Source of the DNA: a virus
IMG/VR virus record: IMGVR_UViG_3300032322_001039
Span: 1-41,100 of that record
Direction: 5' to 3' (one strand)
Length of the DNA stretch: 41,100 nt
Shown here: positions 17,690 through 37,715 of the stretch, piece by piece
Position numbering within the stretch: position 1 is the first letter of the stretch
Layout: each line of letters begins with the position of its first letter
The notes under the pieces: model-generated
Seen by the model: the letters and a program-made list of their open reading frames with translations, nothing else
Told to the model about the DNA's origin: nothing
The model's database searches: none
Translations under genes and position numbers: made by a program

Positions 17690-17761
17690 GCCTCTGTGGT
17701 GAAATGGCTATCACAAGGGACTCATATCCCCTTAGTTCAAGTTCGATTCTTGACGGAGGCA
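17690..17761 (+). tRNA. tRNA with CAT anticodon (Met elongator or Ile2)
   Basis: Acceptor GCCTCTG/CGGAGGC, anticodon loop CTCATAT with anticodon CAT, and T arm TCAAG-TTCGATT-CTTGA. The last anticodon-stem pair is an A-C mismatch. It does not have the initiator-type GGG/CCC anticodon stem. A CAT tRNA may be elongator Met, or Ile2 if its C34 is changed to lysidine; sequence alone does not settle this. Confidence 0.9.
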
Positions 17762-17762
17762 C

Positions 17763-17771
17763 TGGTACAAT
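17763..17771 (+). promoter_or_regulatory. Extended -10 promoter (TGgTACAAT)
   Basis: TGGTACAAT starts two bases after the tRNA end. A start about seven bases downstream gives a short leader with AGAAGGG (17783-17788) before ATG 17795. A second GGTACAAT abuts the ATG at 17789-17794. Confidence 0.5.
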
Positions 17772-17794
17772 ATGTGCAAACAGAAGGGTACAAT

Positions 17795-19000
17795 ATGCGG
17801 ATTGGTTTTGGGTCTACCGACTGGGGTGACCACGTTCAGGCTCAACCTGGCGGCTGTACACACATGCGCTGTATGATTCCTGCTCATGGCCTTAGACAAA
17901 TAGGCCATGAAGTTGGTGTGGGAGAAATAGGATGGAAAGACGGCGAGGGATTTGTAATAGTTCCCCCAGTAGAAAAACTTAAGTTTGGTAAGACTGGAAT
18001 TGTAACAACATATGACGAGCATTTTGATAAACTTGACGTAGTTGTCCTAAAGTTGTTTATGCATAAGGATTCAGAAAAATATATAACTAAGGCCAGAGAA
18101 TATGGTCAGACGGTAATCATTGATACAGACGATCATTTCGAACAACTGCCACCAGACAATATGGCATTTCACACCACTGATCCCAAGAACTCTCCAGACA
18201 ACAATAGGAACTTTCTTATCAACAATTATTCAAAGGTTGATGGCATTATCGCCAGCACAAAGTTTCTTGAGCAAAAATCTTTAAGACACAATAACAATGT
18301 TTACAGAGTGCCGAACTCACTGATTCCAGAAACTTTTTATTTCAGGCAAGACTTCTCTGGCTGGAATCCAACGATTGGCTGGGTAGGAATCATGTTATGG
18401 AGAGTCGAAGACATCAAGGAGGTCGGAGCGCCGCTAAAAACATTTCTAGAAAAATATGATCTTAAGTTTCATCATTCTGGTATTGTTCTAACGAGAGAGA
18501 AGTGGTTCGCTGAAGAGGCAGGATTTAATCCAGATAGAATGTCTGGATATGTCGGAGCAAGACCAGAATATTATGGCAACTTGTTTATGCCAATTGATAT
18601 TGGCATAGTGCCACTGACAAATAATCCGTTCAATGAGGCAAAGAGTTGTCTAAAGGGAATGGAGTATGCTTTGAGTGGAATCCCATTCGTTGCGTCGGAT
18701 ACTCAGGAATACCGCGATCTTGCAGAAATGGGATGTGGTAGGATAGCCAAGAAGCCGCGCGACTGGATTAGGCATTTAGAAGAACTTAGAGATCCAGAAG
18801 TTAGGAAGCAGGAAAGAATTAAGAATTACGAAGTGGTTGTAAAAAATCTAAGTCTGTTTATGATGAAGTATAAGTGGTCCGAAGCGATTGAACTGATTCA
18901 CATGAATGCACAAAAGAATAGAATTAAGCCAAAACCTAAGCCACAAATCACGGGGCAGAAAGGTTTCGACCCTAGCAAGTTTCTAGTCGCACAAAACTAA
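17795..19000 (+). CDS. GT-B fold glycosyltransferase (GT4-like)
   Basis: 401 residues from ATG 17795; longer readings start inside the tRNA and are rejected. The N-terminus MRIGFGSTDWGDHVQAQPGG resembles the donor-accepting opening of GT-B enzymes, and the C-terminal domain has the nucleotide-sugar motif region NEAKSCLKGMEYALSGIPFV followed by a DTQEYRDL segment. It should transfer a sugar from a nucleotide donor. It lies 6 kb away from the main sugar block, beside the tail genes, so it may glycosylate a virion protein. The last 49 bases overlap the 5' end of the tmRNA. Confidence 0.88.
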   Translation: MRIGFGSTDWGDHVQAQPGGCTHMRCMIPAHGLRQIGHEVGVGEIGWKDGEGFVIVPPVEKLKFGKTGIVTTYDEHFDKLDVVVLKLFMHKDSEKYITKAREYGQTVIIDTDDHFEQLPPDNMAFHTTDPKNSPDNNRNFLINNYSKVDGIIASTKFLEQKSLRHNNNVYRVPNSLIPETFYFRQDFSGWNPTIGWVGIMLWRVEDIKEVGAPLKTFLEKYDLKFHHSGIVLTREKWFAEEAGFNPDRMSGYVGARPEYYGNLFMPIDIGIVPLTNNPFNEAKSCLKGMEYALSGIPFVASDTQEYRDLAEMGCGRIAKKPRDWIRHLEELRDPEVRKQERIKNYEVVVKNLSLFMMKYKWSEAIELIHMNAQKNRIKPKPKPQITGQKGFDPSKFLVAQN

Positions 19001-19175
19001 CAAACATAATAAACGGCAACTCACAAAACGCCTTCGCACTAGCAGCATGATAGTGCCGCGCAGCAATCGCGTGGGAACAGAAGATTGCATTCGTAGTACA
19101 ATAGTAGTTATAGCAACACAACGTTAGGACTAGAAATAAATTAGCGGGACGGCGGTTCGATTCCGCCCTGCTCCA
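18952..19175 (+). ncRNA. ssrA: tmRNA (SsrA), short phage form
   Basis: The 5' end GGGGCAG pairs with CTGCTCC (19168-19174) and includes the G3-U70 pair recognised by alanyl-tRNA synthetase. GGTTTCGAC near the 5' end and GGGACGGCGGTTCGATTCCGCC at the 3' end are the conserved tRNA-like parts. The tag reading frame at 19015-19050 encodes GNSQNAFALAA and stops at TGA; ALAA at the end is the classic protease tag. At 224 nt it is much shorter than the usual 350-400 nt, so pseudoknots are probably lost. CCA is not encoded. Some actinobacteriophages are known to carry tmRNA. It would rescue stalled ribosomes and tag their products. Confidence 0.88.
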
Positions 19176-19186
19176 CAGGAGGAAAA

Positions 19187-19711: not shown

Positions 19712-21010
19712 TTGGCCAAAAGATTCCTGGTAGATCTTGATCTAAGCACTAACGAGTTGCAGAATGCTGTCATTCAGAACGCCTCTGCCGATCCATCTGG
19801 CATAGCAGGTAGAATTTATTTTAATGATGGTAGCGGATATCTAAGAGTTTATGATGGATCTACTTGGCAAAATCTTTCCACTGGAGGCGCTGCTGCCAAT
19901 GCTGTAGCCCTAACTGGAGATGTAACTGGAAGCGGTTCCGTTGTCAATAACGTTATTTCTATTGCTACAACCATCGCTGCTAACTCTGTGGCCCTTGGTA
20001 CAGACACAACTGGAAACTACGTTGCAGATGTAACTGCTAGTTCATACATCATAGTTTCTGGAACGCCAGGAGAAGGATGGTCGCCAGCAATCTCTGTTGA
20101 TGCCACAGATGCAAATACAGCATCTAAGGTTGTCGCAAGAGATGCTTCAGGCAATTTCTCTGCTGGAACAATTACTGCAACGCTTGCTGGCCTTGCCGCT
20201 AGTGCGACCATAGCAAATGGTGTCGCCACCAATTCTGTTGCACTAGGTGCAGATACAACAGGAAATTATGTTGCAGCACTCACTGCATCTACTGGTGTAA
20301 ATATTACTGGTGGAACTGGCGAGGGCGTCACTAATGTAATCTCTATTGGACAGCCAGTAGCAATCTCAGACTCTCCAACATTTGCTGGATTGACAGTCTC
20401 TGGAGACCTTGCGGTTAATGGTGCCGATATCACCACTACATCAACTGGCACTGCCACACTCTTTAATGCAAATGCAACTACCCTCAATATAGGTGGTGCC
20501 GCAACAACTATTTCAATAGGTGCCGCTACAGGGAATACGACTGTAAACAATAACCTGATTGTCTCTGGCAACCTAACAGTATCTGGATCAGTAACTACCC
20601 TCAACACGGAACAACTGATAGTTGAAGACAATATCATAGTTCTGAATTCAAACGTGACCACCGCCCCAACTCTAGATGCTGGGCTGGAAGTTGAAAGAGG
20701 AACATCGCTCAATGTTTCCGTTCTGTGGAATGAAAATGATGATCTATGGACGCTCACAAATGATGGAACTAACTATCATCAGATTACTAGAAAGAGCAGC
20801 CATGCAATTACTGGAAACAGTTCTTCAGCAGCATTCACGCTCACACATAATCTTGGAACTAGAGATGTGGCCGTAGATGTTTATGCAGATGGAGGCTCCT
20901 ATGATAGCGTAGAGGTTGATGTTGAAAGAACATCAACAAGTGCTATCACAATTAGATTCGCCACCGCACCTACCACGGGTACGAATTACAGAGCAGTTAT
21001 CGTAGGATAA
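19712..21010 (+). CDS. Tail fibre/appendage-type structural protein
   Basis: 432 residues from TTG 19712. The protein is low in charge and very rich in Ala, Thr, Ser, Val and Gly, with repeated segments; NSVALGTDTTGNYVADVTAS and NSVALGADTTGNYVAALTAS are near-copies about 83 residues apart. A later segment (NTEQLIVEDNIIVLNSN ... LEVERGT) is characteristic of long fibrous appendage proteins in aquatic phages. The N-terminus (FLVDLDLSTNELQNA) resembles virion-attachment regions of such proteins. Probably contacts the host surface. Confidence 0.82.
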   Translation: MAKRFLVDLDLSTNELQNAVIQNASADPSGIAGRIYFNDGSGYLRVYDGSTWQNLSTGGAAANAVALTGDVTGSGSVVNNVISIATTIAANSVALGTDTTGNYVADVTASSYIIVSGTPGEGWSPAISVDATDANTASKVVARDASGNFSAGTITATLAGLAASATIANGVATNSVALGADTTGNYVAALTASTGVNITGGTGEGVTNVISIGQPVAISDSPTFAGLTVSGDLAVNGADITTTSTGTATLFNANATTLNIGGAATTISIGAATGNTTVNNNLIVSGNLTVSGSVTTLNTEQLIVEDNIIVLNSNVTTAPTLDAGLEVERGTSLNVSVLWNENDDLWTLTNDGTNYHQITRKSSHAITGNSSSAAFTLTHNLGTRDVAVDVYADGGSYDSVEVDVERTSTSAITIRFATAPTTGTNYRAVIVG

Positions 21011-21013
21011 TCA

Positions 21014-23005
21014 ATGTCTAGAAGATTTTTAACGCCAGTTGGACTTCATAGTGCGACAAGCGACCCATCCTCAGCATCAATTGGTAATATGTACTTCAAT
21101 ACCGCATCCAATGTGTTGAGACTATATTTTAATTCTAAATGGAATAATTCAAGCACAACGGCATCGGTGATTAATGCTTCTGAGGGATATTATGGATCAT
21201 TCTACAGTGCATCGACACAAACTAATCCAGTTCCTAATATCAGAAGAGCAATGACTTTTACAAATACTGAAATATCAAATGGGGTAACTCTAACAACTGC
21301 ATCTACATTTACTATAGCAAATGCTGGGGTATACAATATACAGTTCTCAGCCCAGTTTGAGAAGACCGACTCTGGAACAGATGAGTTTGATGTTTGGCTG
21401 TACGAAAACGGAGAAGATATTCCTTGGACAAATACACGAATAACAACTCAGGGAAACAACACTAAAGTTGTTGCTGCATGGAATTGGCTGGTCTATGCTG
21501 AAGCCGGACATGATTATTCTATATTGTGGAGCAGTCCAGATGATGGTATACAACTTCTTGCTCAGCCAGAGCAGACTGGACCAACCAGACCAGGAATCCC
21601 CTCTATTATTTTAACTGTACAACAAGTAACATATGGCGTTCAAATAGCATCTGTTTCTTATGCTACGGTCTCAGCAAGTTCAACAATATCTTCTTCTGCT
21701 ACGGTCGCAAGTCATGCTAGCACGGCCTCTGCCATTGCAGGAAATCTGGTGTCGGGAAGAGTGGCCTCTGCAACATTCGCCGCCAGCGTGGATTGGGGAG
21801 GGGTAACAAGCAAGCCTACCTCTATAGCATCTGCCACCATATCATCTAGTGCAGTTATTGCCAACCATGCTAAAACTGCATCTTCCATTGCCGGATCTCT
21901 AGTAACTGGAACTGTTGCATCTGCCACCGTCGCATCCCACGCTGGAACGGCGTCAAGTATTAACGCCTCCCTAATCACTGGCACAACGCTCCCCGCAGCC
22001 ATCGTTAATTCCAGCCTGACCTCTTTAGGAACTTTGAGTAACCTAACTGTAAGTGGTAGCCTCAATGTAGATTCGGGAACACTTTTTGTAGATGCAACTA
22101 ATAATGAAGTAGGTATTCTTACAACGTCCCCAGCCTCTGCACTCCATGTTGTTGGAGGGGCGCTGGTCACTAGAAATCTTTCAGCAAGCGGCACTCTCTT
22201 TTCTGGCTCAGCAATTTTAGGAGGAACTAATGGGCTATATCTTGGGCTAGGAGATGCGACATACGCTGGAACAGCGAGCGGTGCAGCGATACAATTAGGA
22301 ACTACATCTGGCTCTAGAACAATTAGACTTTTCACTCCTAATTCATCTGGAAACAATGGCCTACGACTATTCATTTCCGATAGCAACACCTCTGTATGGT
22401 CAGACTTATTAATATCCCCAACATTTTCTGTTAGATCAAGTCAGTTAACTGCATCTACTGAGATTTTTGGTGTCAACACTTCTACTGGTCTTACTACTGC
22501 ATCAACATTTTCTATCACAGGAAACGCCTCTGTTGGTGGAATGTTAACATTCAAAGCAGTCGGTGGTCAGGAGGGTGGGGAGTTTACAATGGAAAGACCC
22601 CCTACGACTAGTTTATCTGCAAACATAGCAATTGATATCTTTTCAAACTTTTTTAGAATATTTGAAAATGCTGGAAATGCTAGAGGCGCCTTCCTTGATC
22701 TTACAAAACAAGGAAATAACGTTTCATCTGAGTTTTGGACTAGTGGAAATCTAATTAGAGGTGAACCGTCTCCAACTACATCATCTGTTGCTGGATTTTT
22801 CGTCATATCGGTCGTGCCTGGTACTAGTCTCAATGGATGTACAATTAATCCTAGAGGAACAGCATCTAGAATTATCATTCCTCAAGTTAACACTGGAATT
22901 AATGGAGTATCGTCCGCTGGCTTTATTAGATGCTATGTTGAAAATAATGCAGGAACTGCTCTTGCTATAGGCACTAGCGTTCCGCTATACTATCTAGCAT
23001 GGTAG
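21014..23005 (+). CDS. Tail fibre-type protein with C1q-like domain
   Basis: 663 residues. The first 50 residues (RRFLTPVGLHSATSDPSSAS) resemble the start of the preceding protein. Residues about 55-205 look like a C1q/TNF-type jelly roll (VTLTTASTFTIANAGVYNIQ, then the CGVY-like strand pattern, then YSILWSS). A long Ala/Ser/Thr-rich repeat region (205-330) follows, and a beta-rich C-terminal part. It starts 3 bases after the previous stop and likely forms trimers with receptor-binding function. Confidence 0.82.
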   Translation: MSRRFLTPVGLHSATSDPSSASIGNMYFNTASNVLRLYFNSKWNNSSTTASVINASEGYYGSFYSASTQTNPVPNIRRAMTFTNTEISNGVTLTTASTFTIANAGVYNIQFSAQFEKTDSGTDEFDVWLYENGEDIPWTNTRITTQGNNTKVVAAWNWLVYAEAGHDYSILWSSPDDGIQLLAQPEQTGPTRPGIPSIILTVQQVTYGVQIASVSYATVSASSTISSSATVASHASTASAIAGNLVSGRVASATFAASVDWGGVTSKPTSIASATISSSAVIANHAKTASSIAGSLVTGTVASATVASHAGTASSINASLITGTTLPAAIVNSSLTSLGTLSNLTVSGSLNVDSGTLFVDATNNEVGILTTSPASALHVVGGALVTRNLSASGTLFSGSAILGGTNGLYLGLGDATYAGTASGAAIQLGTTSGSRTIRLFTPNSSGNNGLRLFISDSNTSVWSDLLISPTFSVRSSQLTASTEIFGVNTSTGLTTASTFSITGNASVGGMLTFKAVGGQEGGEFTMERPPTTSLSANIAIDIFSNFFRIFENAGNARGAFLDLTKQGNNVSSEFWTSGNLIRGEPSPTTSSVAGFFVISVVPGTSLNGCTINPRGTASRIIIPQVNTGINGVSSAGFIRCYVENNAGTALAIGTSVPLYYLAW

Positions 23006-23785: not shown

Positions 23786-24016
23786 ATGAATAACAATGTC
23801 TATGTTGATTACGATATGGCGCACAAGATTGTTGACTCCAGGCCCAATCTTTATTGGGACGGATGGACAATTGTAGAATGGCGCAGAGATAGCGAAGGCT
23901 TCTTCAATAAGAATGGAAGTTTTCGCAATGGCCAATGGGGTCGCACAATGAGGCGTATGGATGTCTCAAGCAGTGGCACATGGAAGGTTCCGGCAAAATA
24001 TGTCATGGACAAGTGA
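23786..24016 (+). CDS. Hypothetical small protein
   Basis: 76 residues, rich in Trp, Arg and Asn. Ribosome binding site AGAGGCA before ATG 23786. The last 17 bases overlap the WhiB gene. No motif recognised. Confidence 0.72.
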   Translation: MNNNVYVDYDMAHKIVDSRPNLYWDGWTIVEWRRDSEGFFNKNGSFRNGQWGRTMRRMDVSSSGTWKVPAKYVMDK

Positions 24017-24272
24017 GGCCCTTTGCGCTGGCTTAGACACAGAACAGTATTTTGATAAGTATGAGAATGATGTTACAATTGCGAATAAAGTAGATGAGTT
24101 ATGCTTGGGGTGCCCCGTGATGCAACAGTGTTTTGATTATGGTGTCTCAACAGAATCTTGGGGAGTTTGGGGAGGAGTATTTCTTGTCGATGGTAAGATA
24201 GATAACGCTAGAAATTCCCATAAAGATGTAAACGTTTGGTCGCAAATATCTAGAAAGATGGAAAGATGGTAG
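24000..24272 (+). CDS. whiB: WhiB-family Fe-S transcription factor
   Basis: 90 residues from ATG 24000 (the reading can be extended to 23961 but homologues begin near this Met). The four cluster cysteines are C9, C35, C38 and C44 (ALCAG, LCLGCPVMQQC), followed by the family's turn GVWGG at 55-59. The C-terminal tail is short and basic. WhiB proteins bind 4Fe-4S and interact with the housekeeping sigma factor; phage versions can act as repressors or modulators of host WhiB. The family is limited to actinobacteria and their phages. Confidence 0.92.
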   Translation: MSWTSEALCAGLDTEQYFDKYENDVTIANKVDELCLGCPVMQQCFDYGVSTESWGVWGGVFLVDGKIDNARNSHKDVNVWSQISRKMERW

Positions 24273-24687: not shown

Positions 24688-24856
24688 GAAAGATCCAGTA
24701 TCTTACAAGCAGCCACAAGAAATGTACTGCTCTAACTACGACTGCTTATCTATGATAGCAAAATACAGCGAACTGTATGGTCTACTAGATGACTATGGTG
24801 TAGAATGTTCTCAATATTATTGTTTCGACTGCATAGTGAATGGAAACGTTGAATGA
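24671..24856 (+). CDS. Hypothetical small cysteine-containing protein
   Basis: 61 residues with spaced cysteines (YCSNYDC ... [10 protein letters not shown]), possibly a zinc site. It overlaps genes on both sides, and its end overlaps the gmd start by 4 bases. Confidence 0.7.
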
Positions 24857-25854
24857 AAAAGGCTTTGATAACTGGTATTACTGGTCAGGATGGGTCGTAC
24901 CTTGCCGAACTTCTTTTGGAAAAGGGCTATGAGGTTCATGGTATAAAGCGTCGTTCTTCATCGATTAATACTGAGCGCATTGATCATTTGTATGACAATC
25001 CCAGTCTAAAATTGCATTATGGGGATCTAACTGACACTAGCAATATTCAGTCTCTGGTTAGGGATATATATCCACATGAGATTTATAATCTTGGCGCTCA
25101 AAGCCACGTCCAGGTTTCTTTTGAGACTCCAGAATATACGGCCAATGCTGATGCTATGGGTACACTAAGAATTCTAGAAGCCATTCGACAGACCGATCCT
25201 ACTGATATTAGATTTTATCAGGCTGGAACATCTGAAATGTTCGGGGCCGCCCCTCCACCTCAAAGTGAATCTACTGCTTTTTATCCACGATCACCCTACG
25301 GCGTTGCAAAACTTTATGGATACTGGATAACTAAAAATTATCGTGAGGCATACAATATGTATGCTTGTAGCGGAATTTTGTTTAATCATGAATCTCCGCG
25401 TCGTGGCGAGACTTTTGTTACTAGAAAGATTGTTCGTGGACTCAAGAGGATGCACGACGGTGGCACAACTCCAATAGAACTTGGCAATCTATACGCTCTC
25501 AGAGATTGGGGACATGCCAAGGATTTTGTTGAGGCAATGTGGCTTATGCTACAGGGAGAAACTCCTGAGGACTACGTTATTGCCACAGGCACTCAGTATT
25601 CTGTCAAAGAGTTTGTTGAGGCTTGTGCCCCGTTCTTTAATATGAATATTGAATGGAGCGGAAGCGGAGTCGATGAGGTTGCCATAGACACTGTATCTGG
25701 AAAAACTGTGGTAAAGATTAATGAGCGTTATTTCAGACCAGCAGAAGTTGAGTCTCTGCTAGGAGATGCTTCCAGGGCACGACAAGAATTGGGCTGGAGT
25801 CCAAAGAATACTTTCTACGATCTAGTTAGAGATATGTGTGTCAATGAAATCTAA
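24853..25854 (+). CDS. gmd: GDP-mannose 4,6-dehydratase
   Basis: 333 residues, matching the family length of 320-375. The Rossmann glycine motif is [10 protein letters not shown] (G8, G11, G14). Catalytic residues are visible as T126-S127-E128 in AGTSEMFG and Y149/K153 in PYGVAK. The [15 protein letters not shown] segment is typical of Gmd. It converts GDP-D-mannose, supplied by the host, to GDP-4-keto-6-deoxy-D-mannose in the cytoplasm. It opens the overlapped sugar block; ATGA overlaps the upstream stop. Confidence 0.94.
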
Positions 25855-26644
25855 TTTGATTACTTACATTACAAACTGGGACAGAGTTAATGATGATGTT
25901 CTGCAAAAAGAAAAGTCTTTACTAGACAATAAAATAGATTATTTTGTCATGAATTCATCTTCAACTCAAAAAGATGAATGGCTAAACATCGGGACGAATG
26001 CCTGGTGCTATAGACAATTATATGAAATCTTTAAGCACGCTAAAGATCTTGACTATGAATTTATCTCTGTGTTGTTTGGAGATATTTACTGTCCAGATGG
26101 AACTACATTTTCTGACTATGTAAAAGAAACAAATAATAATATCAACACTCTTCCAGAGTGTTATGTGTATTCAACATCATTCACGCACGATGGATGGAGT
26201 TATCCGTCTACTGTCATTAGAATGTATGACGATGACGTATCCTATGTTTGTGGAGTGGACACACTGTACCTGACTGTACATAGGGAGATAGCACTAATAG
26301 TATATAAGTTCTTAAAGTATTTTGATAAGAAGCATGGTATAGATAATTTTTCTAGTGGGTGGGCAGTAGATGTTTTATGTTCGGCATTTTCTATCTACTA
26401 CGGAAAGAATGTCTTCAGGAATACATCTTCCATTCTAATACATTATGAAAATAGCGGATACGATGTGGGCAAGGCATATGGAGAAATGAGTCTGCTGATT
26501 AGTGAGGCAGTGTACTTCTGGGATGCCATTGGAAATAATGGGGCAGCGTTAAAGAGAATTATTGATATGATGTTCGAACAAAGAGTGTCCAGAGAACATA
26601 CATATGAAGATTTTTATGGAGTAACTAATGCAAACAAACAATAA
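25844..26644 (+). CDS. Unknown protein in the sugar block, possibly a glycosyltransferase
   Basis: 266 residues from ATG 25844 (GTG 25838 is an alternative). N-terminal [14 protein letters not shown] and later [13 protein letters not shown] look like a Rossmann-type strand-turn pattern, but I do not recognise a definite family. Flanking by gmd and fcl and overlaps at both ends make a role in glycan synthesis likely. Confidence 0.78.
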
Positions 26645-27557
26645 AATATTTGTCGCTGGTCACCGTGGACTAGTGGGTTCTGCGTTAATTAGGAAATTAC
26701 AATATAGTGGCTACACCAATATAGTCACAGTTGGTAAGAGTCAACTTGATCTTAGGAACCAGTCTGATGTTTCAGAATGGTTTGCAGCAGAGAGGCCAGA
26801 GTATGTTTTTTTGGCGGCGGCTAAGGTTGGAGGAATAAATTATAACAAAACCTATCCAGCCGAATTCATCTATGACAACCTACAGATTCAGAATAATGTC
26901 ATTCAGTCTTCTTATTTAAATGGATGCAAGAAATTAATGTTCCTTGGATCTGCTTGTATCTATCCTAAAGTAACACCACAGCCTATCAGAGAAGAATATC
27001 TTCTATCCGCTCCGCTTGAGCCTACCAATGAAGGGTATGCCTTGGCGAAGATAGCAGGACTGAGAATGTGTGAACTATACAATAGGCAGTACGGATTCAA
27101 TGCTATCTCTGTTATGCCAGCAAATCTTTATGGGACTAATGACAACTTCAATGTGGAACAGTGTCATGTTATTCCAGCAATGATTAGAAAATTCCATGAC
27201 GCAAAAATAAACAATAATGAATCGGTGACTCTTTTTGGCGACGGGTCTCCAACCAGAGAGTTTCTTCATGTAGATGATCTAGCAGACGCCCTGGTATTTC
27301 TTATGAATAATTTCAACAGTCCAGAGCATATCAACATTGGATCTGGAGACGAATATTCAATCATGCAGTTGGCAAATATCGTGAAGTATGTTGTTGGATA
27401 TTCTGGAGAAATAGAGTGGGATATATCGAAGCCCAATGGAACGCCTAGAAGAAAACTTGATATATCTAAACTTTCTATGCTAGGATGGAAGCCGCAGACA
27501 GATCTTTTTGTTGGCCTTAGACAAACATACGATTGGTTCTTGGAGAACGTGGCGTGA
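26628..27557 (+). CDS. fcl: GDP-L-fucose/GDP-L-colitose synthase (epimerase-reductase)
   Basis: 309 residues with the NADP motif GHRGLVGS (G11, G14, G17). Catalytic residues line up with E. coli Fcl plus one: S108 and C110 in GSACIYPK, Y137/K141 in YALAK, H180 in CHVIPAM. Fcl does C3/C5 epimerisation and C4 reduction of GDP-4-keto-6-deoxymannose to GDP-L-fucose. ColC, a close relative, does C5 epimerisation and C4 reduction in colitose synthesis. The ColD-like gene right behind makes both products possible. Confidence 0.9.
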   Translation: MQTNNKIFVAGHRGLVGSALIRKLQYSGYTNIVTVGKSQLDLRNQSDVSEWFAAERPEYVFLAAAKVGGINYNKTYPAEFIYDNLQIQNNVIQSSYLNGCKKLMFLGSACIYPKVTPQPIREEYLLSAPLEPTNEGYALAKIAGLRMCELYNRQYGFNAISVMPANLYGTNDNFNVEQCHVIPAMIRKFHDAKINNNESVTLFGDGSPTREFLHVDDLADALVFLMNNFNSPEHINIGSGDEYSIMQLANIVKYVVGYSGEIEWDISKPNGTPRRKLDISKLSMLGWKPQTDLFVGLRQTYDWFLENVA

Positions 27558-28726
27558 AATATAAGTGGCCCTTGATGAAGCAGACTATATCAGTCTTTGA
27601 TCGCATGAAGATGATTGGGTTCATTGCCACCACAAAACAATTTACTAACGGAAAGATGGTTCGCAAGTTTGAGAAAGAGTGGAGTAGGTGGCTAGGCGCA
27701 AAGTATTCCCTATTTGTTTCTTCTGGTAGCACGGCCAACTCTCTACTAGTTGAGGCTATAAAGGAAAAATATGGACTGTCTAATGATAAGGTTCTTGTTC
27801 CTGCCTGCACATGGGTAACCAATGTTGGACCAATTATTCAAAGCGGCTTGCAGCCAGTATTCTGTGACATCAATACATCGAACTTCTCGTTTCTTGAGGA
27901 AGATCTTTTAGCGATTAAAGAAGCGCATCCAGATATCAAAGTTATATTTGTGACGCATCTACTGGGCTTTCCAGCAAACAATGAGGTGTACCAAAAAGTA
28001 TTCCCCGACGCCATCATCATCGATGACGTATGTGAGTCGCATGGCTGCGTCGCACAAGATGGAAGTAAGATGGGATCGCAAAGTATCGGAGCCACATTTA
28101 GTTTCTACTTTGGGCATCACATGACTACTATCGAAGGCGGAATGGTGTGTACCAACGATAGAGAACTCTACAACATTATGAGGATGAAGAGAAGTCATGG
28201 CATGGCTAGAGAGTCTGAATACTTTGACCAATACGCGCAGATGTATCCAGATATAGATAGATCATTCTTATTTATGACTGATGGATATAACTTTAGAAAT
28301 CATGAAATTCCAGCCGTTCTTGGCATAGCACAACTCAAGAGACTAGATAAAATGATTCGTCGTAGGAGAGAAAACTACGAGCAATACTATGGCATTCTCA
28401 TGGAGAATACAAACAAGTTCCTTCCAGTCGGAAGAAATCCAGGCAATAGCAGTTTTTGTTTCCCATTTATCGCTAGGAATGTAGAGATCAAAAATAGGTT
28501 TAGAGAACTGCTGATACAATATGGGATTGAGTATAGGCCAGTTGTGAGTGGCAATCTTTTGCGCCATCCGTTTTTGTCTGATTATAGGATGGCACTTGAT
28601 AAAGAATCTTATAACGTTGATACAGTTCATGACCTTGGTATATATGTCGGCAATAATCATTTTCTAGATTACAGAGACATATATGTATTAGTAGATATCA
28701 TGAAGATGTTGGACAATGATCTTTAA
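27554..28726 (+). CDS. colD: ColD-like GDP-4-keto-6-deoxymannose 3-dehydratase (DegT-fold PLP enzyme)
   Basis: 390 residues from GTG 27554, which overlaps the fcl stop (GTGA) and has GGAG 8 bases upstream. The fold is DegT/DnrJ/EryC1, but the PLP-lysine position is His: SFYFGHHMTTIEGG, first His at residue 188. ColD (about 388 residues, catalytic His188 as I recall) and RfbH are the known members with His in place of Lys; they act as 3-dehydratases rather than aminotransferases. With Gmd and an Fcl/ColC-like enzyme beside it, the GDP substrate and ColD role are favoured over the CDP-sugar enzyme RfbH. Product after ColC would be GDP-L-colitose, a 3,6-dideoxy sugar. Confidence 0.85.
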   Translation: MKYKWPLMKQTISVFDRMKMIGFIATTKQFTNGKMVRKFEKEWSRWLGAKYSLFVSSGSTANSLLVEAIKEKYGLSNDKVLVPACTWVTNVGPIIQSGLQPVFCDINTSNFSFLEEDLLAIKEAHPDIKVIFVTHLLGFPANNEVYQKVFPDAIIIDDVCESHGCVAQDGSKMGSQSIGATFSFYFGHHMTTIEGGMVCTNDRELYNIMRMKRSHGMARESEYFDQYAQMYPDIDRSFLFMTDGYNFRNHEIPAVLGIAQLKRLDKMIRRRRENYEQYYGILMENTNKFLPVGRNPGNSSFCFPFIARNVEIKNRFRELLIQYGIEYRPVVSGNLLRHPFLSDYRMALDKESYNVDTVHDLGIYVGNNHFLDYRDIYVLVDIMKMLDNDL

Positions 28727-29558
28727 TCCGTTTGGTGGAGAAGGAAAGATTCCTACTGGAACGTATGTAGATCACACACATTCGTCTCCAAGGTATGACA
28801 CCTCAGACATAATTAATTTTGGCTGGGACTTCACCTATCGGTCAAATGATTCATTTTATATTGATGACGCTCTCAGGTCTGCCTTAAGTGATAGCAGTCA
28901 AGGAGAAAAATATGGGTGGCTGCTAGAAAGTAAGGCAATTATTCCAGATATATATAGCGACTTCGTTAAGAATATATCTGCATATATGAATACATTTAGT
29001 CTAGTATTCACAAGCGACTATGAAATATATTCTTTGCATGACAGAATTAAGTTTGTGCCAGCCAACACTTTATGGGTAAAGAATCCAAAGATATATAAGA
29101 AGTCTAAACTTGTTTCAATGATTAGTTCAAGCAACGCGCAGACTGACGGACATAGACTAAGGCTGTTCACTATGAATAAGTTTCAAAATCAAATAGATAT
29201 CTACGGCAGACACATAAATCCCATACCAATGAAAGAGTTTGGTCTTAAGCAATATATGTTTTCTATTGCGATTGAGAACTCTTCTTATCGAACATATTTT
29301 ACAGAGAAGATACTAGATTGCTTCGCTACTGGAACAATACCTATCTACTGGGGTGCTCCAGATATAGGAGATCATTTTAATAGTGACGGCATCATTTCTT
29401 TTCATGACTCGTTTGATATAAACATGCTATCAGAAGAACTTTACTATTCAAAAATAGATGCTGTAAAAGATAACTACGAAAGATCACTTGACTACGCAGT
29501 GCTAGAAAATTATATTTACAAAAACTATTTAAAGGAATCTCATGAAGAGAAAATATAA
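28716..29558 (+). CDS. GT10-type fucosyltransferase (copy 1)
   Basis: 280 residues. The C-terminal half carries the GT10 signature: YMFSIAIENS, then YFTEKILDCFATGTIPIYWG, then PDIGDHFNSDGII. GT10 enzymes transfer L-fucose from GDP-fucose. The donor here could be GDP-fucose or GDP-colitose. It overlaps the ColD-like gene by 11 bases and the second copy by 17. The N-terminal half is less conserved and probably binds the acceptor. Confidence 0.87.
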   Translation: MIFNPFGGEGKIPTGTYVDHTHSSPRYDTSDIINFGWDFTYRSNDSFYIDDALRSALSDSSQGEKYGWLLESKAIIPDIYSDFVKNISAYMNTFSLVFTSDYEIYSLHDRIKFVPANTLWVKNPKIYKKSKLVSMISSSNAQTDGHRLRLFTMNKFQNQIDIYGRHINPIPMKEFGLKQYMFSIAIENSSYRTYFTEKILDCFATGTIPIYWGAPDIGDHFNSDGIISFHDSFDINMLSEELYYSKIDAVKDNYERSLDYAVLENYIYKNYLKESHEEKI

Positions 29559-30336
29559 TATCTACGGCAGCGGCTGGTCGGAGACAGACGCAGCGAACGT
29601 TTCAAAAAATATAGATAGCATAGAGTGGGTGGTGGATGGTTCTGCTCAAGATAGTTTTTATCCAAACACCATGCTAAAACTGGTAGACGGCGATACTCAA
29701 AGTAGATATAAGTATGGATTGCTTAATGAGTCCATAGCAATCGATACAGTTTCTCATAATGAAATCAACAAATACATTGACGGTTTTGATTATATTTTCA
29801 CGCACAATAAAGAGTTCTATTCTCAAATTGATAAAGTAAAGTTTATCCCAGCGTCTGTATATTGGATAGAAAATCCAAAAATACATAAGAAAAATAAACT
29901 TGTATCCATGATATCTTCTAGCAAATTGTTATGCGAAGGACATAAGACTAGGCTTGCCTGGGTCGAAAGGCTACATGGAAAGTTAGATTTATTTGGTAGT
30001 GGATTTAATCCAATAGAAAAAAAGGAATATGGTTTAAATAAATACATGTTCTCAGTGGCCATAGAAAACGCTTGTTATGAAAGTTATTTCACTGAAAAGA
30101 TATTAGACTGCTTTGCCACTGGCACGATCCCAATATATTTGGGAACCCCAGACATTGGTGATTTTTTCAACCCAGATGGAATCATTTCTTTAGAAGAAGA
30201 TTTTGACGTGTCTATGCTAACCGAAGAACTATATTACTCTAAAATGGATGCTATCGTAGAAAACTTTGATAGAGTATTAAAATACAGAACAGTAGAAGAT
30301 TTTATATACGAGAACTACTTAAGGGATAAGGACTAG
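29542..30336 (+). CDS. GT10-type fucosyltransferase (copy 2)
   Basis: 264 residues, clearly a tandem paralogue of the previous gene: KKNKLVSMISSS and YFTEKILDCFATGTIPIY recur almost exactly. The N-terminal halves differ (this one starts MKRKYNIYGSGWSETDAANV), which fits acceptor change after duplication. The second-domain GTPDIGDFFNPDGII is retained, so both copies look active. Confidence 0.87.
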   Translation: MKRKYNIYGSGWSETDAANVSKNIDSIEWVVDGSAQDSFYPNTMLKLVDGDTQSRYKYGLLNESIAIDTVSHNEINKYIDGFDYIFTHNKEFYSQIDKVKFIPASVYWIENPKIHKKNKLVSMISSSKLLCEGHKTRLAWVERLHGKLDLFGSGFNPIEKKEYGLNKYMFSVAIENACYESYFTEKILDCFATGTIPIYLGTPDIGDFFNPDGIISLEEDFDVSMLTEELYYSKMDAIVENFDRVLKYRTVEDFIYENYLRDKD

Positions 30337-30337
30337 A

Positions 30338-30988
30338 GTGAAAGAGTTTATTGATTTTGCAAATAATAGAGAATGTTTTTCACAGTTAGGACAAGATCTC
30401 TTTGTCTTGTATATATTGAAAGAAAAACGTGGTGGCTACTTCGTTGAGTTTGGTGCTACAGATGGAATAAGTTTAAACAATACTAGACTTCTTGAGAAGA
30501 ACTATGGTTGGTCTGGCATACTATGTGAGCCATCTCCGTATTATGCAGAAATACTAAAGAACAGTGATAGGTCTGCACATATAGACGATAGATGTGTCTA
30601 TATAAATTCGGGCGAGGAAGTGGTATTTATTGATACCGATGCCCGTGGACTAGCAACTATAAAAAAGTACGCTGATGGAGACTCACACTCTGGTTCTCGC
30701 GCTGCTGGAATAGAATATTTTATACAGACAATAACTTTGGATGACCTACTAAATCAGTATGGTGCGCCACCAGTCATCGATTATATGTCCGTTGATACTG
30801 AGGGATCGGAGTTTGATATATTAAATTCTTTTAGTTTTTCTAGACACATTAACATAATGACAGTGGAGCATAACTATAGAGAAGATCGACAGAAAATAAA
30901 TGATGTTTTAACCAACAATGGTTTTGTTAGAATCTTTGAGGAAATATCAAGGTTCGATGATTGGTACATAAATAAGGAAATTTTGTGA
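30338..30988 (+). CDS. FkbM-family SAM-dependent methyltransferase
   Basis: 216 residues from GTG 30338. Motif I GGYFVEFGATDGISLNNT and post-motif CEPSPYY and DYMSVDTEGSEFDIL fit the FkbM family, which methylates hydroxyls on sugars and natural products. In this block it probably O-methylates a glycan sugar. No signal peptide. Confidence 0.85.
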   Translation: MKEFIDFANNRECFSQLGQDLFVLYILKEKRGGYFVEFGATDGISLNNTRLLEKNYGWSGILCEPSPYYAEILKNSDRSAHIDDRCVYINSGEEVVFIDTDARGLATIKKYADGDSHSGSRAAGIEYFIQTITLDDLLNQYGAPPVIDYMSVDTEGSEFDILNSFSFSRHINIMTVEHNYREDRQKINDVLTNNGFVRIFEEISRFDDWYINKEIL

Positions 30989-31734
30989 TAGTTATAGACA
31001 AGGGTCGGCATCCAATTCGTGGCTTCCTCTCCTACTATATAAGCATACTTACTTCATTTAGAAAACTTATATCGGAGGGCACAAGCCCAGAAGATATCCG
31101 TATTGATCCGTACATTTTTTATACCTACGGAGAGGCGTCTAACTGGTTTAAGAAAGACAGGATTGCATTCGCTTGCCTAGAAGATTCTATATTTTATTCA
31201 ACTGATAGTTGGAACATAGATCCTTGGCCGACCGATGATCAGTTGGATCTCATTCAATACAAAAAGTATTTTGATTACAATGACAAAACCTATAACTATA
31301 TTGATAGCAATCTTCCATCAATAAAAAACTCTGTTGGCATACACTTCAGAGGGACAGACCACTACCACACTGATCGCGTAGATTTAAGTGTTTATGTTGA
31401 TCGTACTAGAAAAGCAATGTATGATAATGGCTACAATACAATTTTTGTGGCGACAGATGAAGATGGTATTTTGGAAGAAATATATTCTTGCTTTCCAGAT
31501 GTAAATATTATTCACAATGAAACTATCAAGTCTTCTGGCGGAGTGTCCGTGTTCGATAAGGAAATGTCTCAGCAGGAGAAGATAGAGTCTGGTCGGCAGG
31601 TTTTACTAGATAGTCATTGTTTGGCAGAATGTGATATAGTTTTTGCTAAGTTATCTAATGTTAATTATTATTCAAGAATATTGAATCCTCAACTTAAAGT
31701 TACTTATCTAGATAAAGGATCTACTGTAAGATGA
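30985..31734 (+). CDS. NodZ/GT23-like or O-fucosyltransferase-like glycosyltransferase
   Basis: 249 residues from GTG 30985, overlapping the previous stop by 4 bases. SVGIHFRGTDHY matches the H-x-R-x-TD type motif that binds GDP-fucose in GT11, GT23, GT65 and GT68. IFVATDEDGILE matches the following strand with its nucleotide-binding end. Exact family not fixed. It would be the third fucosyltransferase-type enzyme of the block. Confidence 0.75.
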   Translation: MIVIDKGRHPIRGFLSYYISILTSFRKLISEGTSPEDIRIDPYIFYTYGEASNWFKKDRIAFACLEDSIFYSTDSWNIDPWPTDDQLDLIQYKKYFDYNDKTYNYIDSNLPSIKNSVGIHFRGTDHYHTDRVDLSVYVDRTRKAMYDNGYNTIFVATDEDGILEEIYSCFPDVNIIHNETIKSSGGVSVFDKEMSQQEKIESGRQVLLDSHCLAECDIVFAKLSNVNYYSRILNPQLKVTYLDKGSTVR

Positions 31735-32507
31735 CAATATATTTTAATTCTTTAGGCAATAATGGACATCTTGGTAATCAGATGTTTCAGTACGCCGCAC
31801 TAAGAGGAATTGCTCATAAGCGTGGACTAGACTGGAACATTCCACCCAAGTCTTTATTTGGAAAACGGTATCCACTACGAAGTAGCATCTACGAATGCTT
31901 TGAACTTCCATTTGTAAAGAATGGACATGTAGGGGTGAATATGGATGCCCAAACTATTTCGGAACGCCAACATTCTTACGACGAAACCCTTGTTGATCAG
32001 ATTCAAGACGGGAATAATATTGATGGATACTTTCAGTCACCAAAGTATTTTAATGAAATATCCTACATGATTAGAAGAGACTTCACATTTAAAAAAGATA
32101 TTCAAGACAGTGCAATCAATCCGCCGAAAGATTTTTGTGCCATGCATGTAAGAAGAACAGACTATGTTGGGAATAGCCTGCATCACACGAACCTAACAAG
32201 TTCTTATTACAAAGCAGCACTGGATATTTTAGATGCCAAAAATGTGATCGTGTTCTCTGATGACCAAGAGTGGTGTAGATCACATAAGTTTTTTGGAGAA
32301 TTTATTGTTTCAAGCAACAATGAGTATGTAGACTTGTATCTAATGCAAAATGCTAGTCAGCATATTATTGCAAACAGTTCTTTCAGTTGGTGGGGCGCTT
32401 GGTTATCTGAGTCTAAAGAAGTCGTTGCACCATCCAAATGGTTCGGTCCAGCACTAGAGCATTTAGATACAAGTGATTATTACTTAGAAGGATGGCATGT
32501 GGTATGA
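31731..32507 (+). CDS. GT11-type alpha-1,2-fucosyltransferase
   Basis: 258 residues. N-terminal GNNGHLGNQMFQYAALRGIA, the central MHVRRTDYVGN motif, and C-terminal NSSFSWWGAWLSE are hallmarks of GT11. The family uses GDP-L-fucose; a GT11 member of E. coli O55 is reported as a colitosyltransferase, so the donor here may be either. Start overlaps the previous gene by 4 bases. Confidence 0.92.
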   Translation: MTIYFNSLGNNGHLGNQMFQYAALRGIAHKRGLDWNIPPKSLFGKRYPLRSSIYECFELPFVKNGHVGVNMDAQTISERQHSYDETLVDQIQDGNNIDGYFQSPKYFNEISYMIRRDFTFKKDIQDSAINPPKDFCAMHVRRTDYVGNSLHHTNLTSSYYKAALDILDAKNVIVFSDDQEWCRSHKFFGEFIVSSNNEYVDLYLMQNASQHIIANSSFSWWGAWLSESKEVVAPSKWFGPALEHLDTSDYYLEGWHVV

Positions 32508-33115
32508 GTTTTAGTGACCATTTTGAACATGCATTTTGTGTAAATCTTGAGCGTAGACCAGATAGATGGAAGAGCGCCCAGAAACAGTTTGAAAGAATTG
32601 GCATTGAGGTAGAAAGAGTTGATGCGGTAGATGGGGATAAACTTCCCCCAGGAAACTTAAAGCCAGGAGCAATGGGATGCCGCGCTAGCCATCTTAATGT
32701 TTTTAACATGGCCGCAGAGCGTGGATTGTCATCGTTTCTTCTCCTAGAAGATGACGTTGTTTTTGATCCAGACTTCAATGAAAAGTTTAATAGTCAAGAG
32801 CCTCAAATACCAGATAACTTTGTGATGCTATATATTGGGACAAATAAGTTGTCTGGACATGCAAACAAAATATCTGATAATGTGTTTAGAATATTTAATG
32901 TTCTCGCTGCACACTGCGTAATATTTAAAGAGCCGTGCTACGAAGACATAATATCAAAATTGAGCGGAGCACCAATGTATCCATGCGATGTATCTTATGG
33001 AGAGTTACAAATTAATTATCCGTCATTTGCGATACACCCCTCCTTAGCATGGCAAAAAGAGGGATTCTCTGACATAGAAAAAGTTTATGTAGATTATGAT
33101 TTTATGAGGGACTGA
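32504..33115 (+). CDS. GT25-family glycosyltransferase
   Basis: 203 residues from ATG 32504 (ATGA overlap; an in-frame ATG at 32492 is less likely). VNLERRPDRW near the start and LLLEDDVVF in the middle are typical of GT25 enzymes of lipooligosaccharide synthesis, here in a phage. A galactosyl- or glucosyl-type donor would be usual for the family. Confidence 0.87.
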   Translation: MSFSDHFEHAFCVNLERRPDRWKSAQKQFERIGIEVERVDAVDGDKLPPGNLKPGAMGCRASHLNVFNMAAERGLSSFLLLEDDVVFDPDFNEKFNSQEPQIPDNFVMLYIGTNKLSGHANKISDNVFRIFNVLAAHCVIFKEPCYEDIISKLSGAPMYPCDVSYGELQINYPSFAIHPSLAWQKEGFSDIEKVYVDYDFMRD

Positions 33116-33723
33116 TGACAAAGTTTTCAATTATAGCAACTGATTATGAACCATATGTTCCAAGAGATAGAATGTTGGAGGGGCTTCGATCTCTAGCCGC
33201 GCAAACCTTTAAAGACTTCGAGTTGATCATTGTTCACGATGGCCCGAAGCCTTCTGGACCAGAAGAGTATGAGTCTGCTGGTACAGAGTTTACATATCTT
33301 GAAACTGATAAGCATTATGGTGTCTATGGAACGGATCAATTCTACGCTGGTTATGGATGGGGACATCACTCCAGAGATCTTGGTATGCGTCAGTCAGAGG
33401 GTGAATACATAATAAACTTTAATATCGACAACATCCTTTATCCGCAGGCGTTGCAGGCAATAGCCGACAAACTTGATAAAACAAAGGCTGACTGTCTTGT
33501 TTTTGCATGTAGTCATGAGAAGTTTGGTATCAAATATTTCTCTGGGATTCCACCCGTAATGGGCAAGGTTGATATGCTACAATGTGTCATTAGTAGATCT
33601 GCTTGGGAGTCAATTGGCTGGTGGTATAGATATGATCATTCAGCAGATGGATACATATTCCAAGAACTAGTAAAAAGATATGGATATATTCATATACCAG
33701 AAGTATTGGGAGAAAATAGATGA
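33115..33723 (+). CDS. GT2-like glycosyltransferase
   Basis: 202 residues, shorter than usual GT2 (250-300). N-terminal KFSIIATDYEPYVPRDRMLEG and TFKDFELIIVHDGP give the GT-A start, with an NIDN segment in the place of the DxD motif (INFNIDNILY). No membrane spans. It probably adds a sugar from an NDP donor. Confidence 0.82.
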   Translation: MTKFSIIATDYEPYVPRDRMLEGLRSLAAQTFKDFELIIVHDGPKPSGPEEYESAGTEFTYLETDKHYGVYGTDQFYAGYGWGHHSRDLGMRQSEGEYIINFNIDNILYPQALQAIADKLDKTKADCLVFACSHEKFGIKYFSGIPPVMGKVDMLQCVISRSAWESIGWWYRYDHSADGYIFQELVKRYGYIHIPEVLGENR

Positions 33724-34481: not shown

Positions 34482-35061
34482 TTTAGAAACTTTAATTGAA
34501 GAAATAAATTCAAGCGGCTCAGATAAGCAGACGAGTCATAACTACTGCGGTGCATACTATGAACTATTTGAGAGATTGAATTGTGATAATGTCCAATCAT
34601 TTCTAGAAATTGGCATTACAAATACCAGGCCAGAAAATAGTTCGCTACATGCTTGGGGTAGGCTTTTCCCCAGCGCCTCTGTTTATGGAATCGATATTGC
34701 AGCGTATAAGATATTTCAAAAGGACAACATCTATACTTACGAAGCAGATCAGTCATCAATTTTAGATTTATCAAACTTTATGAATGAGTTTAAATATCCT
34801 AAGTTTGATATCGTTCTAGATGATGGATCTCATGTTTTCCAGCACGCTAGGGCCACGTTTGAATATATGATTAGGCATCTTAAGAATGATGGACTATATA
34901 TGATTGAAGATGTCTCAAAGAGGCAGGAGTCCTGGCAGCAGACAATATTTGAATGGGATGCGTTTCTTTCTGGAAGAACCGACGTTGCCTACCGTATAAT
35001 CGATACTGTTCCAGAAAATACAGAAGACGATAGCATAGTGATTGGAATTTGGAAAGTATGA
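34474..35061 (+). CDS. Class I SAM-dependent methyltransferase (CmcI/MycE-like)
   Basis: 195 residues. Motif I is SFLEIGITNTRP, followed by VYGIDIA and DIVLDDGSHVFQH, a pattern seen in sugar O-methyltransferases and CmcI-like proteins. It is probably the second glycan O-methyltransferase of the block. Confidence 0.82.
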   Translation: MFSLETLIEEINSSGSDKQTSHNYCGAYYELFERLNCDNVQSFLEIGITNTRPENSSLHAWGRLFPSASVYGIDIAAYKIFQKDNIYTYEADQSSILDLSNFMNEFKYPKFDIVLDDGSHVFQHARATFEYMIRHLKNDGLYMIEDVSKRQESWQQTIFEWDAFLSGRTDVAYRIIDTVPENTEDDSIVIGIWKV

Positions 35062-36062
35062 AAAGAGTTTTGCTAACTGGGGCCAGCGGCTTCGTTGGTA
35101 GCCATGTGCTACGGCATCTGCTAGTGAATACTGATTGGGAAATAGTTTGCCTGTCTAGTTTTAGGCATCGTGGGATAACTGACCGCATACGAGTAGCGGT
35201 TGATGGATTAGATTATGACGACCGCGTTCATGTTCTCATCCATGATCTTTGTGCTCCAATCTCCCCCGTGCTTGATGCCAAGATCGGTCATATAGATTAT
35301 GTGATGAACGTAGCAAGCGAATCACATGTAGATAGATCTATTATTGAGCCAGGACCATTCGTGCAGAATAACGTTGCTTTGATTTGCAATATGCTTGATT
35401 GGGCAAAGATCAGAGACATAGAAAAGTTTTTGCATGTATCTACAGATGAAGTCTATGGGCCAGCACCACTAGATCACAACCATAAAGAATGGGAGACATA
35501 CTACCCATCTAATCCGTACAGTGCATCCAAGGCGGCACAAGAATCTATTGCCTTCTCGTATTGGCGAACATACGGCGTTCCTCTAATCATCACGAACACC
35601 ATGAACATCATCGGAGAAATGCAAGATCCAGAGAAGTTTGTTCCTATGATTATCAAGAAGGTGCTTGCAGGAGAGACTGTAACAATTCACAGTTCTCCTA
35701 CTGGTGAGTTGGGCAGCAGATACTATTTGCACGCCAGAAATCAGGCTGACGCTCTTGTTCACTGTCTTGGGCTGCCCACTCCGCTATACGGACAGAGTTC
35801 CGTGCCTGCCAAGTTTAATGTTGTTGGTAATCGTGAGGTCAATAATTTTGAAATGGCAGAAATGGTTGCATCTTATGTTGGCAAGCCACTACACTATGAA
35901 CTTGTAGACTTCCACTCAAGCCGCCCAGGACATGACTTGCGTTATGCCTTAGACGGTGATAAAATTGCTGCTACGGGCTGGAAGGCTCCGTTGTCGTTAG
36001 AAGAATCTTTAGAAAGAACGGTGAAGTGGACATTGGTACACCCAGAATGGCTGACGCTATGA
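35058..36062 (+). CDS. dTDP-glucose 4,6-dehydratase-like SDR enzyme
   Basis: 334 residues from ATG 35058 (ATGA overlap). Rossmann motif TGASGFVGSH (near residues 7-16), catalytic STDEVYG and YSASK are visible. This matches the extended SDR group that includes RmlB. It may make an additional 4-keto-6-deoxy donor or act as a 4-epimerase; no RmlA, C or D partner is seen, so the pathway end cannot be read. Confidence 0.85.
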   Translation: MKRVLLTGASGFVGSHVLRHLLVNTDWEIVCLSSFRHRGITDRIRVAVDGLDYDDRVHVLIHDLCAPISPVLDAKIGHIDYVMNVASESHVDRSIIEPGPFVQNNVALICNMLDWAKIRDIEKFLHVSTDEVYGPAPLDHNHKEWETYYPSNPYSASKAAQESIAFSYWRTYGVPLIITNTMNIIGEMQDPEKFVPMIIKKVLAGETVTIHSSPTGELGSRYYLHARNQADALVHCLGLPTPLYGQSSVPAKFNVVGNREVNNFEMAEMVASYVGKPLHYELVDFHSSRPGHDLRYALDGDKIAATGWKAPLSLEESLERTVKWTLVHPEWLTL

Positions 36063-37226: not shown

Positions 37227-37715
37227 ATGCAAGTATTTCTTCCCGATAGATCATTCAGAGTTTGCGCTGAGACCTTGGATAACAAGCGTTTGGTAAAACA
37301 ATTGCTAGAAGGCCGTCAAATTCTTTGTGCTTTGGCTGGAGAAACTAAGGGTTGGGTCAATCACCCTGCCACCAAAATGTTTGTTGGTCATGAAATCACG
37401 CTAGTAAAGTATCTTTTTTGGATTACCAGAGAAATGTCTCAGCGTGGCTATAAGTGGGAAAATAATTGGGCCGTGATTTCAAACCTATACCAGACAAAGT
37501 TTGAGCATTCTTCATCTCAGTTGCGTCCAGCGTGGATGCTAGATGATAGGTTTGACAAAGTTATTACAACTCATCGTGCTAATCTACATATCAAGGCTCC
37601 AGAACTATATCCACAATACGGACTAGAGACTGCCTTTTATAGAGACTATGTATGCTGCGAGGACTGTAATTACTATTGGCCCACGCATAGATTGGATAAT
37701 GCAGATGTCGCATAG
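37227..37715 (+). CDS. Pyrimidine dimer DNA glycosylase-like protein
   Basis: 162 residues. The segment MQVFLPDRSFRVCAETLDNKRL, then GWVNHPATKMFVGHE and LVKYLFW, resembles the small DNA glycosylase/DUF family (Pyr_excise/MSMEG_6728-like) found in actinobacteria and phages. T4 DenV-type function is suggested by annotation practice; catalytic Thr is not certain here. CCEDC near the end may bind zinc. Confidence 0.68.
   Translation: MQVFLPDRSFRVCAETLDNKRLVKQLLEGRQILCALAGETKGWVNHPATKMFVGHEITLVKYLFWITREMSQRGYKWENNWAVISNLYQTKFEHSSSQLRPAWMLDDRFDKVITTHRANLHIKAPELYPQYGLETAFYRDYVCCEDCNYYWPTHRLDNADVA

Follow-up and report, generated by a model that had tools for sequence, protein, structure and literature searches.

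Colitose is a rare deoxy sugar found on the surface of some gut bacteria. Together with other 3,6-dideoxyhexoses of its kind, it occurs in the lipopolysaccharide of some Gram-negative pathogens (PMC8987622). In the mechanism reviewed for the 3-dehydratase ColD, a Schiff base is formed with pyridoxamine 5'-phosphate (PMP), a histidine drives the loss of the C3 hydroxyl group, hydrolysis follows and glutamate regenerates PMP, while the lack of the cysteine motif for a [2Fe-2S] cluster separates ColD from E1 and SpnQ (PMC8987622). E1/RfbH and SpnQ are likewise DegT-fold dehydratases with histidine at the position of the lysine that binds pyridoxal 5'-phosphate (PLP), but they differ by their [2Fe-2S] cluster and reductase partner and by their CDP- or TDP-linked substrates. 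Here, we describe a gene block on a virus record of the IMG/VR database (IMGVR_UViG_3300032322_001039, a linear DNA of 41,100 bases analysed as a whole and referred to as the window) that encodes a GDP-mannose 4,6-dehydratase (Gmd), an Fcl-type 5-epimerase/4-reductase and a DegT-fold protein resembling ColD. With a probability of roughly 0.63, we read this block as a phage-encoded pathway to GDP-L-colitose that would draw on the GDP-mannose of the host. The GDP-3,6-dideoxyheptose pathway of Campylobacter jejuni HS:5 (PMC10440746) is similar in its GDP-linked sugar, its 4,6-dehydratase, its PLP-dependent 3-dehydratase and the concluding epimerization and reduction; it differs in its heptose substrate, in having a separate epimerase and reductase, and in a 3-dehydratase that is 62–67% identical to ColD. 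The GDP-fucose pathway of cyanophage S-SCSM1 (PMC9602691) likewise comprises phage-borne Gmd, Fcl and fucosyltransferases, and no 3-dehydratase is reported there. The core of the block consists of the following genes:

24853–25854, plus strand: Gmd, GDP-mannose 4,6-dehydratase, predicted to catalyze step 1 (TIGR01472, 521.5 bits, equivalog cut-off 415; GDP-mannose 4,6-dehydratases in the PDB, E 1e-134)
25838–26644, plus strand: open reading frame (ORF) of 268 amino acids between Gmd and Fcl (weak relatives in three loci; no match in Pfam or NCBIfam)
26628–27557, plus strand: Fcl-type 5-epimerase/4-reductase of the GDP-fucose synthase (GFS) lineage, proposed colitose synthase (NF047922, 461 bits)
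27554–28726, plus strand (27533–28726 when read from a TTG start): ColD-like, putative PMP-dependent GDP-4-keto-6-deoxymannose 3-dehydratase (PF01041, 185 bits; His188)

A preliminary description of this DNA had placed Gmd, an Fcl/ColC-like enzyme and the DegT-type protein in one overlapped block, and this arrangement stands except that the 268-residue ORF sits between Gmd and Fcl. All reading frames from Gmd through a GT2-type gene further downstream are intact, and the GC content of this region (38%) lies slightly below that of the whole contig (41%). The first start codon of the DegT ORF is a TTG at 27533 (397 residues), but the alternative GTG at 27554 (390 residues) overlaps the fcl stop codon (GTGA), has a GGAG about 8 nucleotides upstream and is probably the best reading of the start. 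Counted from this GTG, the first histidine of SFYFGHHMTTIEGG is residue 188, exactly as had been proposed, and it aligns with His188 of ColD. Histidine is kept at this position, that of the PLP-binding lysine, in 83 of 83 viral relatives examined (residue numbers for ColD in this comparison are higher by two than in the native protein) and is therefore not a matter of chance. A nearby lysine serving as catalytic base had been named as the mark of an aminotransferase; none occurs at or near position 188 (residues 176 to 205). The four-cysteine [2Fe-2S] motif of E1/SpnQ is also absent from the protein, which contains no C-x-C and only six isolated cysteines (residues 85, 104, 160, 165, 199 and 302).

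Among solved structures, E. coli ColD is the best match (190 bits, E 5.5e-55), with lower scores for E1/RfbH (109) and perosamine synthase (85). The structure prediction suggested in the preliminary description also put ColD first: an AlphaFold2 model calculated from a 47-row alignment (predicted local distance difference test, pLDDT, 94.2; predicted template modelling score, pTM, 0.92) retrieved ColD in all of its first 12 Foldseek matches in the PDB (template modelling scores 0.85–0.88), followed by GDP-perosamine synthase and E1. The protein thus resembles ColD (WbdK) of E. coli O55 (PDB 2gms, 3b8x) in its DegT/AAT fold, His188, lack of the iron–sulphur motif, length and active-site positions. 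Ser57, Trp87, Asp158, Ser183, His188, Asn246, Arg248, Glu326 and Arg328 are invariant in an eight-member alignment of viral proteins and E. coli ColD, and the substrate loop (ExRPxVxGNLL) is as in ColD. Because of His188, the missing iron–sulphur motif and the best match to ColD in both sequence and structure, the reviewed ColD mechanism is a well-supported model for the putative enzyme and the best at hand, and the earlier assignment as a ColD-type 3-dehydratase, in which the adjacent Gmd also fits, is upheld. The overlap with fcl and the length of 390 residues, which had been cited in its favour, do not discriminate by themselves.

The genetic environment connects the ColD-like gene with Gmd. 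In most viral loci, Gmd lies immediately upstream of an Fcl–ColD pair, and in a second viral arrangement (e.g., L010, L018, L027 and L051) it lies immediately upstream of ColD with no Fcl, which ties ColD to the product of Gmd. On two contigs of metagenome-assembled genomes (MAGs) of Pacearchaeota, Gmd and a ColD-like domain even share a single open frame of 776–783 residues (L106, around 6843–9056; L107, 6548–8878, where an Fcl-like gene follows). The order Gmd, 5-epimerase/4-reductase, ColD in the window matches that of bacterial ColD loci, namely Gmd–ColC–ColD in four Rhizobiales loci (L167–L170) whose ColD proteins are 61–63% identical to that of E. coli. As an aside, L051 (8965–12265) has the order Gmd–ColD–SDR (short-chain dehydrogenase/reductase), and its SDR keeps Cys109 while lysine replaces His179, a combination that resembles GDP-mannose 3,5-epimerase; because of this resemblance, phages with this arrangement may finish the sugar differently.

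Whether the block leads to colitose or to fucose, both of which had been considered, depends on the Fcl-type enzyme. It shares 50% identity with E. coli GFS and 36% with the ColC-like proteins of the Rhizobiales loci, and is therefore a GDP-fucose synthase by descent, so that only the first half of the label Fcl/ColC-like can be retained. The GFS residues Ser107, Cys109, Tyr136, Lys140 and His179 are all kept, Ser108 is replaced by alanine, and the score of 461 bits falls below the equivalog threshold of 500 for GDP-L-fucose synthase (NF047922). An Fcl-anchored scan that was blind to ColD recovered 30 loci, with the viral ColD adjacent in 23, another ColD lineage (34–36% identical to the window's ColD) adjacent in four and none in three (L195–L197). 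The scan was widened to 80 Fcls, and in the resulting tree of 104 rows a ColD-type gene is adjacent to Fcl in 43 of 43 scorable rows of the window's clade (two further rows, L233 and L234, offer too little sequence on one side for scoring). The neighbouring clade contains 23 Fcls without ColD, six with it and five unscored; over the whole tree, the ColD label changes eight times compared with about 33 times in shuffles. Since the ColD partner is kept while the ColD lineage switches, there is strong circumstantial evidence that the Fcls of the window's clade act on a 3-deoxy substrate. Three substitutions that are particular to this clade and adjoin the catalytic residues (S108A, Ala71 to an aromatic residue, T164A) are absent from fucose-only relatives; they fit such a substrate without proving it, as descent alone could have produced them. 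They were not accepted as proof of colitose specificity, since Ser108 is retained in most of the ColC-like proteins and Ala71 in all of them. In L171, L172, L176, L199, L201 and L206, close relatives of the window's Fcl are paired with another phage ColD lineage (33–36% identical to the window's ColD), which lies upstream and not downstream of Fcl.

From the gene content, catalytic residues, fold and genomic coupling described so far, and from the lineage set out below, we infer the following course of reactions. Host GDP-mannose would feed the pathway, and Gmd would convert it to GDP-4-keto-6-deoxy-D-mannose. The ColD-like protein would take its PMP form by transamination from glutamate, His188 would expel the C3 hydroxyl group, and hydrolysis would free GDP-4-keto-3,6-dideoxymannose. 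Epimerization at C5 and NADPH-dependent reduction at C4 by the Fcl-type enzyme would then yield GDP-L-colitose, and transferases of the GT10, GT11 and NodZ-like types might transfer the sugar to an acceptor, most likely a glycan of the virion (tail fibre) or else the host surface. Judging by how Fcl and ColD are paired in the genomes, colitose is the most likely end product, although it is not proven over fucose because the reductase belongs to the GFS lineage.

A search of IMG/VR with the ColD-like protein yielded 184 related stretches, the best 80 of them at 53–65% identity. Among 84,980 bacterial and archaeal species, each represented by one genome, cellular matches did not exceed 40% identity except on two contigs (L087, 55%; L088, 52%). 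Both are probably viral sequence, because they are short MAG contigs that the tree places within the viral clade and L087, at 15,998 bases, has the length of the IMG/VR record L273 and is apparently identical with it; a bacterial origin from a near relative, which they might have suggested, was set aside. The viral proteins thus form a virus-associated clade at no more than 40% identity to any clearly cellular protein, which in the tree appears separate from E. coli ColD, itself on a long branch (the Rhizobiales ColDs were left out). The trees are quick maximum-likelihood calculations in which some branches are long, and they call for a cautious reading. The viral ColD-like enzymes do not look like mere recent copies of a known ColD. 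The nearest large cellular clade carries the motifs FSFYYAHHMSTIEGG and FRRGxxGGGN, usually lacks a Gmd within 8 kb, and in the scanned loci has HddA-like kinase, GmhA-like isomerase or Fcl-like neighbours, so that the substrate of the viral enzyme cannot be read from descent. The motifs and neighbours of this clade of His-type DegT proteins (L089–L166; AHHMSTIEGG) point to GDP-heptose chemistry as in C. jejuni (PMC10440746), and its members from marine and gut bacteria are candidate GDP-heptose 3-dehydratases.

Several observations weigh against the colitose pathway. The putative 3-dehydratase is only about 30–33% identical to the characterized ColD of E. coli and has glycine at the position of ColD Ser187, as in 82 of the 83 viral members; Ser187 is not known to be essential to dehydratase activity, however, and was not counted as defining. 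Its nearest cellular relatives (36–40%) adjoin heptose-type genes and not Gmd. The partner reductase is of the GFS and not the ColC lineage, the ColC-like proteins stand apart from it in the tree, and the pairing with ColD is not exclusive, given the six ColD-linked Fcls in a mostly ColD-less clade; the unscored L233 has no ColD downstream. Moreover, the adjoining transferases come from families that are chiefly associated with fucose. Some of these points lend themselves to a branched scheme, in which Fcl makes GDP-L-fucose while only a share of the Gmd product passes through the ColD-like enzyme to a 3,6-dideoxy sugar, so that fucose and colitose (or another 3,6-dideoxyhexose) are both formed and serve different transferases. 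An Fcl of GFS descent with all catalytic residues, a set of transferase genes that would suit several donors (two of type GT10, one of type GT11 and one NodZ-like), and the six ColD-linked Fcls would all agree with it. We nevertheless consider it rather unlikely, since Fcls of the window's clade practically never occur without ColD and the three pocket substitutions set them apart from fucose-only relatives, even if descent could explain the latter.

The remaining alternatives concern the DegT-fold protein itself. Formation of a 3,6-dideoxyheptose from an intermediate of the GDP-heptose type, the reaction known from C. jejuni HS:5, would be in line with the kinase and isomerase genes linked to the sister cellular clade and with the close relationship of the C. 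jejuni C3-dehydratases to ColD, but it is very improbable: there are no heptose genes among the scanned ORFs of the window, Gmd exceeds the equivalog cut-off for GDP-mannose dehydratase, and the substrate loop is that of ColD, unlike the FRRGxxGGGN of the sister clade. Hardly any probability attaches to an E1/RfbH- or SpnQ-type dehydrase with an iron–sulphur electron chain; RfbH is indeed the top-ranked NCBIfam model, but at 165 bits far below its cut-off of 423; the four-cysteine motif is missing, and the protein is closer to ColD than to E1 in sequence and fold. An aminotransferase of the GDP-perosamine type shares the fold family, and cyanophage homologues carry the label 'aminotransferase'; in one phage locus (L275, near 5929), the gene after Gmd–Fcl encodes a DegT protein of the Lys type (FFGNKTITAGEGG), and a possible route to GDP-perosamine would occupy this gene position there. 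This assignment is just as improbable for the window's protein, as histidine replaces lysine in every member of its group. The ColD variant in PDB 3gr9, which according to its title has H188K and S187N, was reportedly made to resemble aminotransferases.

Downstream of the core, the genes that could use the proposed GDP-L-colitose are predominantly glycosyltransferases:

28716–29558, plus strand: GT10-type (alpha-1,3-fucosyltransferase-like), candidate colitosyl- or fucosyltransferase (PF00852, 46 bits; alpha-1,3-fucosyltransferase 2nzw, E 1e-10)
29542–30336, plus strand: second GT10-type transferase (PF00852, 41 bits)
30338–30988, plus strand: FkbM-type methyltransferase, possible sugar O-methylation (PF05050, 68.8 bits)
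30985–31734, plus strand: possible NodZ/FUT8-like (GT23-type) fucosyltransferase (weak: NodZ best in the PDB at E 0.015, then alpha-1,6-fucosyltransferase at E 0.5)
31731–32507, plus strand: GT11-type (alpha-1,2-fucosyltransferase-like; PF01531, 75 bits)
32492–33115, plus strand: GT25-type glycosyltransferase (PF01755, 57 bits)
33115–33723, plus strand: GT2-type glycosyltransferase (PF00535, 39 bits)

For the NodZ/FUT8-like protein, a viral scan found no relatives, and an AlphaFold model computed without an alignment (pLDDT 37) was discarded. About 1.9 kb upstream of the block lie the genes for two Ser/Thr-rich proteins:

19712–23005, plus strand (19712–21010 and 21014–23005): two Ser/Thr-rich, virion- or tail-fibre-like proteins (25–27% Ser plus Thr), candidate glycan acceptors

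Of the two, the first alone (19712–21010) has matches to phrog_356 (minor tail) and to phrog_2647 (head decoration). Mycobacteriophages are known to have glycosylated virions, according to work cited in PMC12619734. Decoration of the virion is the use of the sugar that we favour, although modification of the host surface is about equally probable; DNA modification is less likely. In either of the first two cases, mass spectrometry would be expected to reveal a dideoxyhexose of +130.06 Da on virion or host glycans.

The block is not unique to one phage but recurs in many phages of aquatic origin. Cyanophages ACG-2014f (NC_026927, gp223–226) and S-CAM7 (KU686212, 225–228) carry Gmd, Fcl, a ColD-like protein (55% identical) and a GT11 in the same order, also with a tail-fibre gene nearby; they differ in their cyanobacterial hosts and in the other flanking transferases. 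Their ColD-like proteins were deposited as 'aminotransferase' or 'putative CDP-4-keto-6-deoxy-D-glucose-3-dehydrase', and many uncultured IMG/VR phages contain the block as well. The preliminary description had supposed the pathway to be new in actinophages. A literature search that did not extend to preprints and most subscription journals found no description of phage colitose synthesis, but the deposited copies limit the claim of novelty. If the assignment is correct, the 'aminotransferase' label of many cyanophage genes would have to be changed.

The origin from an actinophage, which had been assumed, was corroborated by the following gene:

23961–24272: WhiB (PF02467, 46.3 bits)

WhiB is a key indicator of actinophages, including freshwater phages of Nanopelagicales (PMC10202952). 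Because of this gene and a DNA polymerase whose closest matches are those of Streptomyces phages (55% identity), the host is likely an actinobacterium. Related viral contigs, 33 in all, were tested for WhiB as well, and 10 of them carry it; the block is therefore shared among actinophages and probably beyond them, and the cyanophage copies directly show the latter. Such a widespread virus-borne route, present also in actinobacterial phages, would show that viruses supply their own rare sugar in infected cells. Only tentatively do we extend this to the proposal that the tailed phages infecting aquatic actinobacteria and cyanobacteria have in common a colitose pathway peculiar to viruses, in which an enzyme of the GFS lineage is re-specialized for the 3-deoxy substrate, and that they decorate their own virions with the sugar; in that case, 3,6-dideoxyhexoses would be frequent in viral glycans and not confined to the O-antigens of Gram-negative bacteria.

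The record is probably a fragment of a larger genome. It encodes a DnaB-type helicase, a primase, a DnaE-like polymerase, a UvsX-like recombinase and a weakly supported terminase, together with seven tRNAs and one tmRNA (18952–19176; tag GNSQNAFALAA), the gene for which overlaps the end of a glycosyltransferase-like ORF (17696–19000; phrog_7162). Further genes are those for a SpoU-type rRNA methylase (14942–15469; PF00588, 97.5 bits), another nucleotide-sugar epimerase/dehydratase (35049–36062; phrog_540, 277 bits) that is 96% identical in the relative L005, a pyrimidine-dimer DNA glycosylase (37227–37715; PF03013, 72.6 bits) and a protein of the IMP dehydrogenase/GMP reductase family (38431–39468; PF00478, 339 bits) with a possible tie to guanine nucleotide supply.

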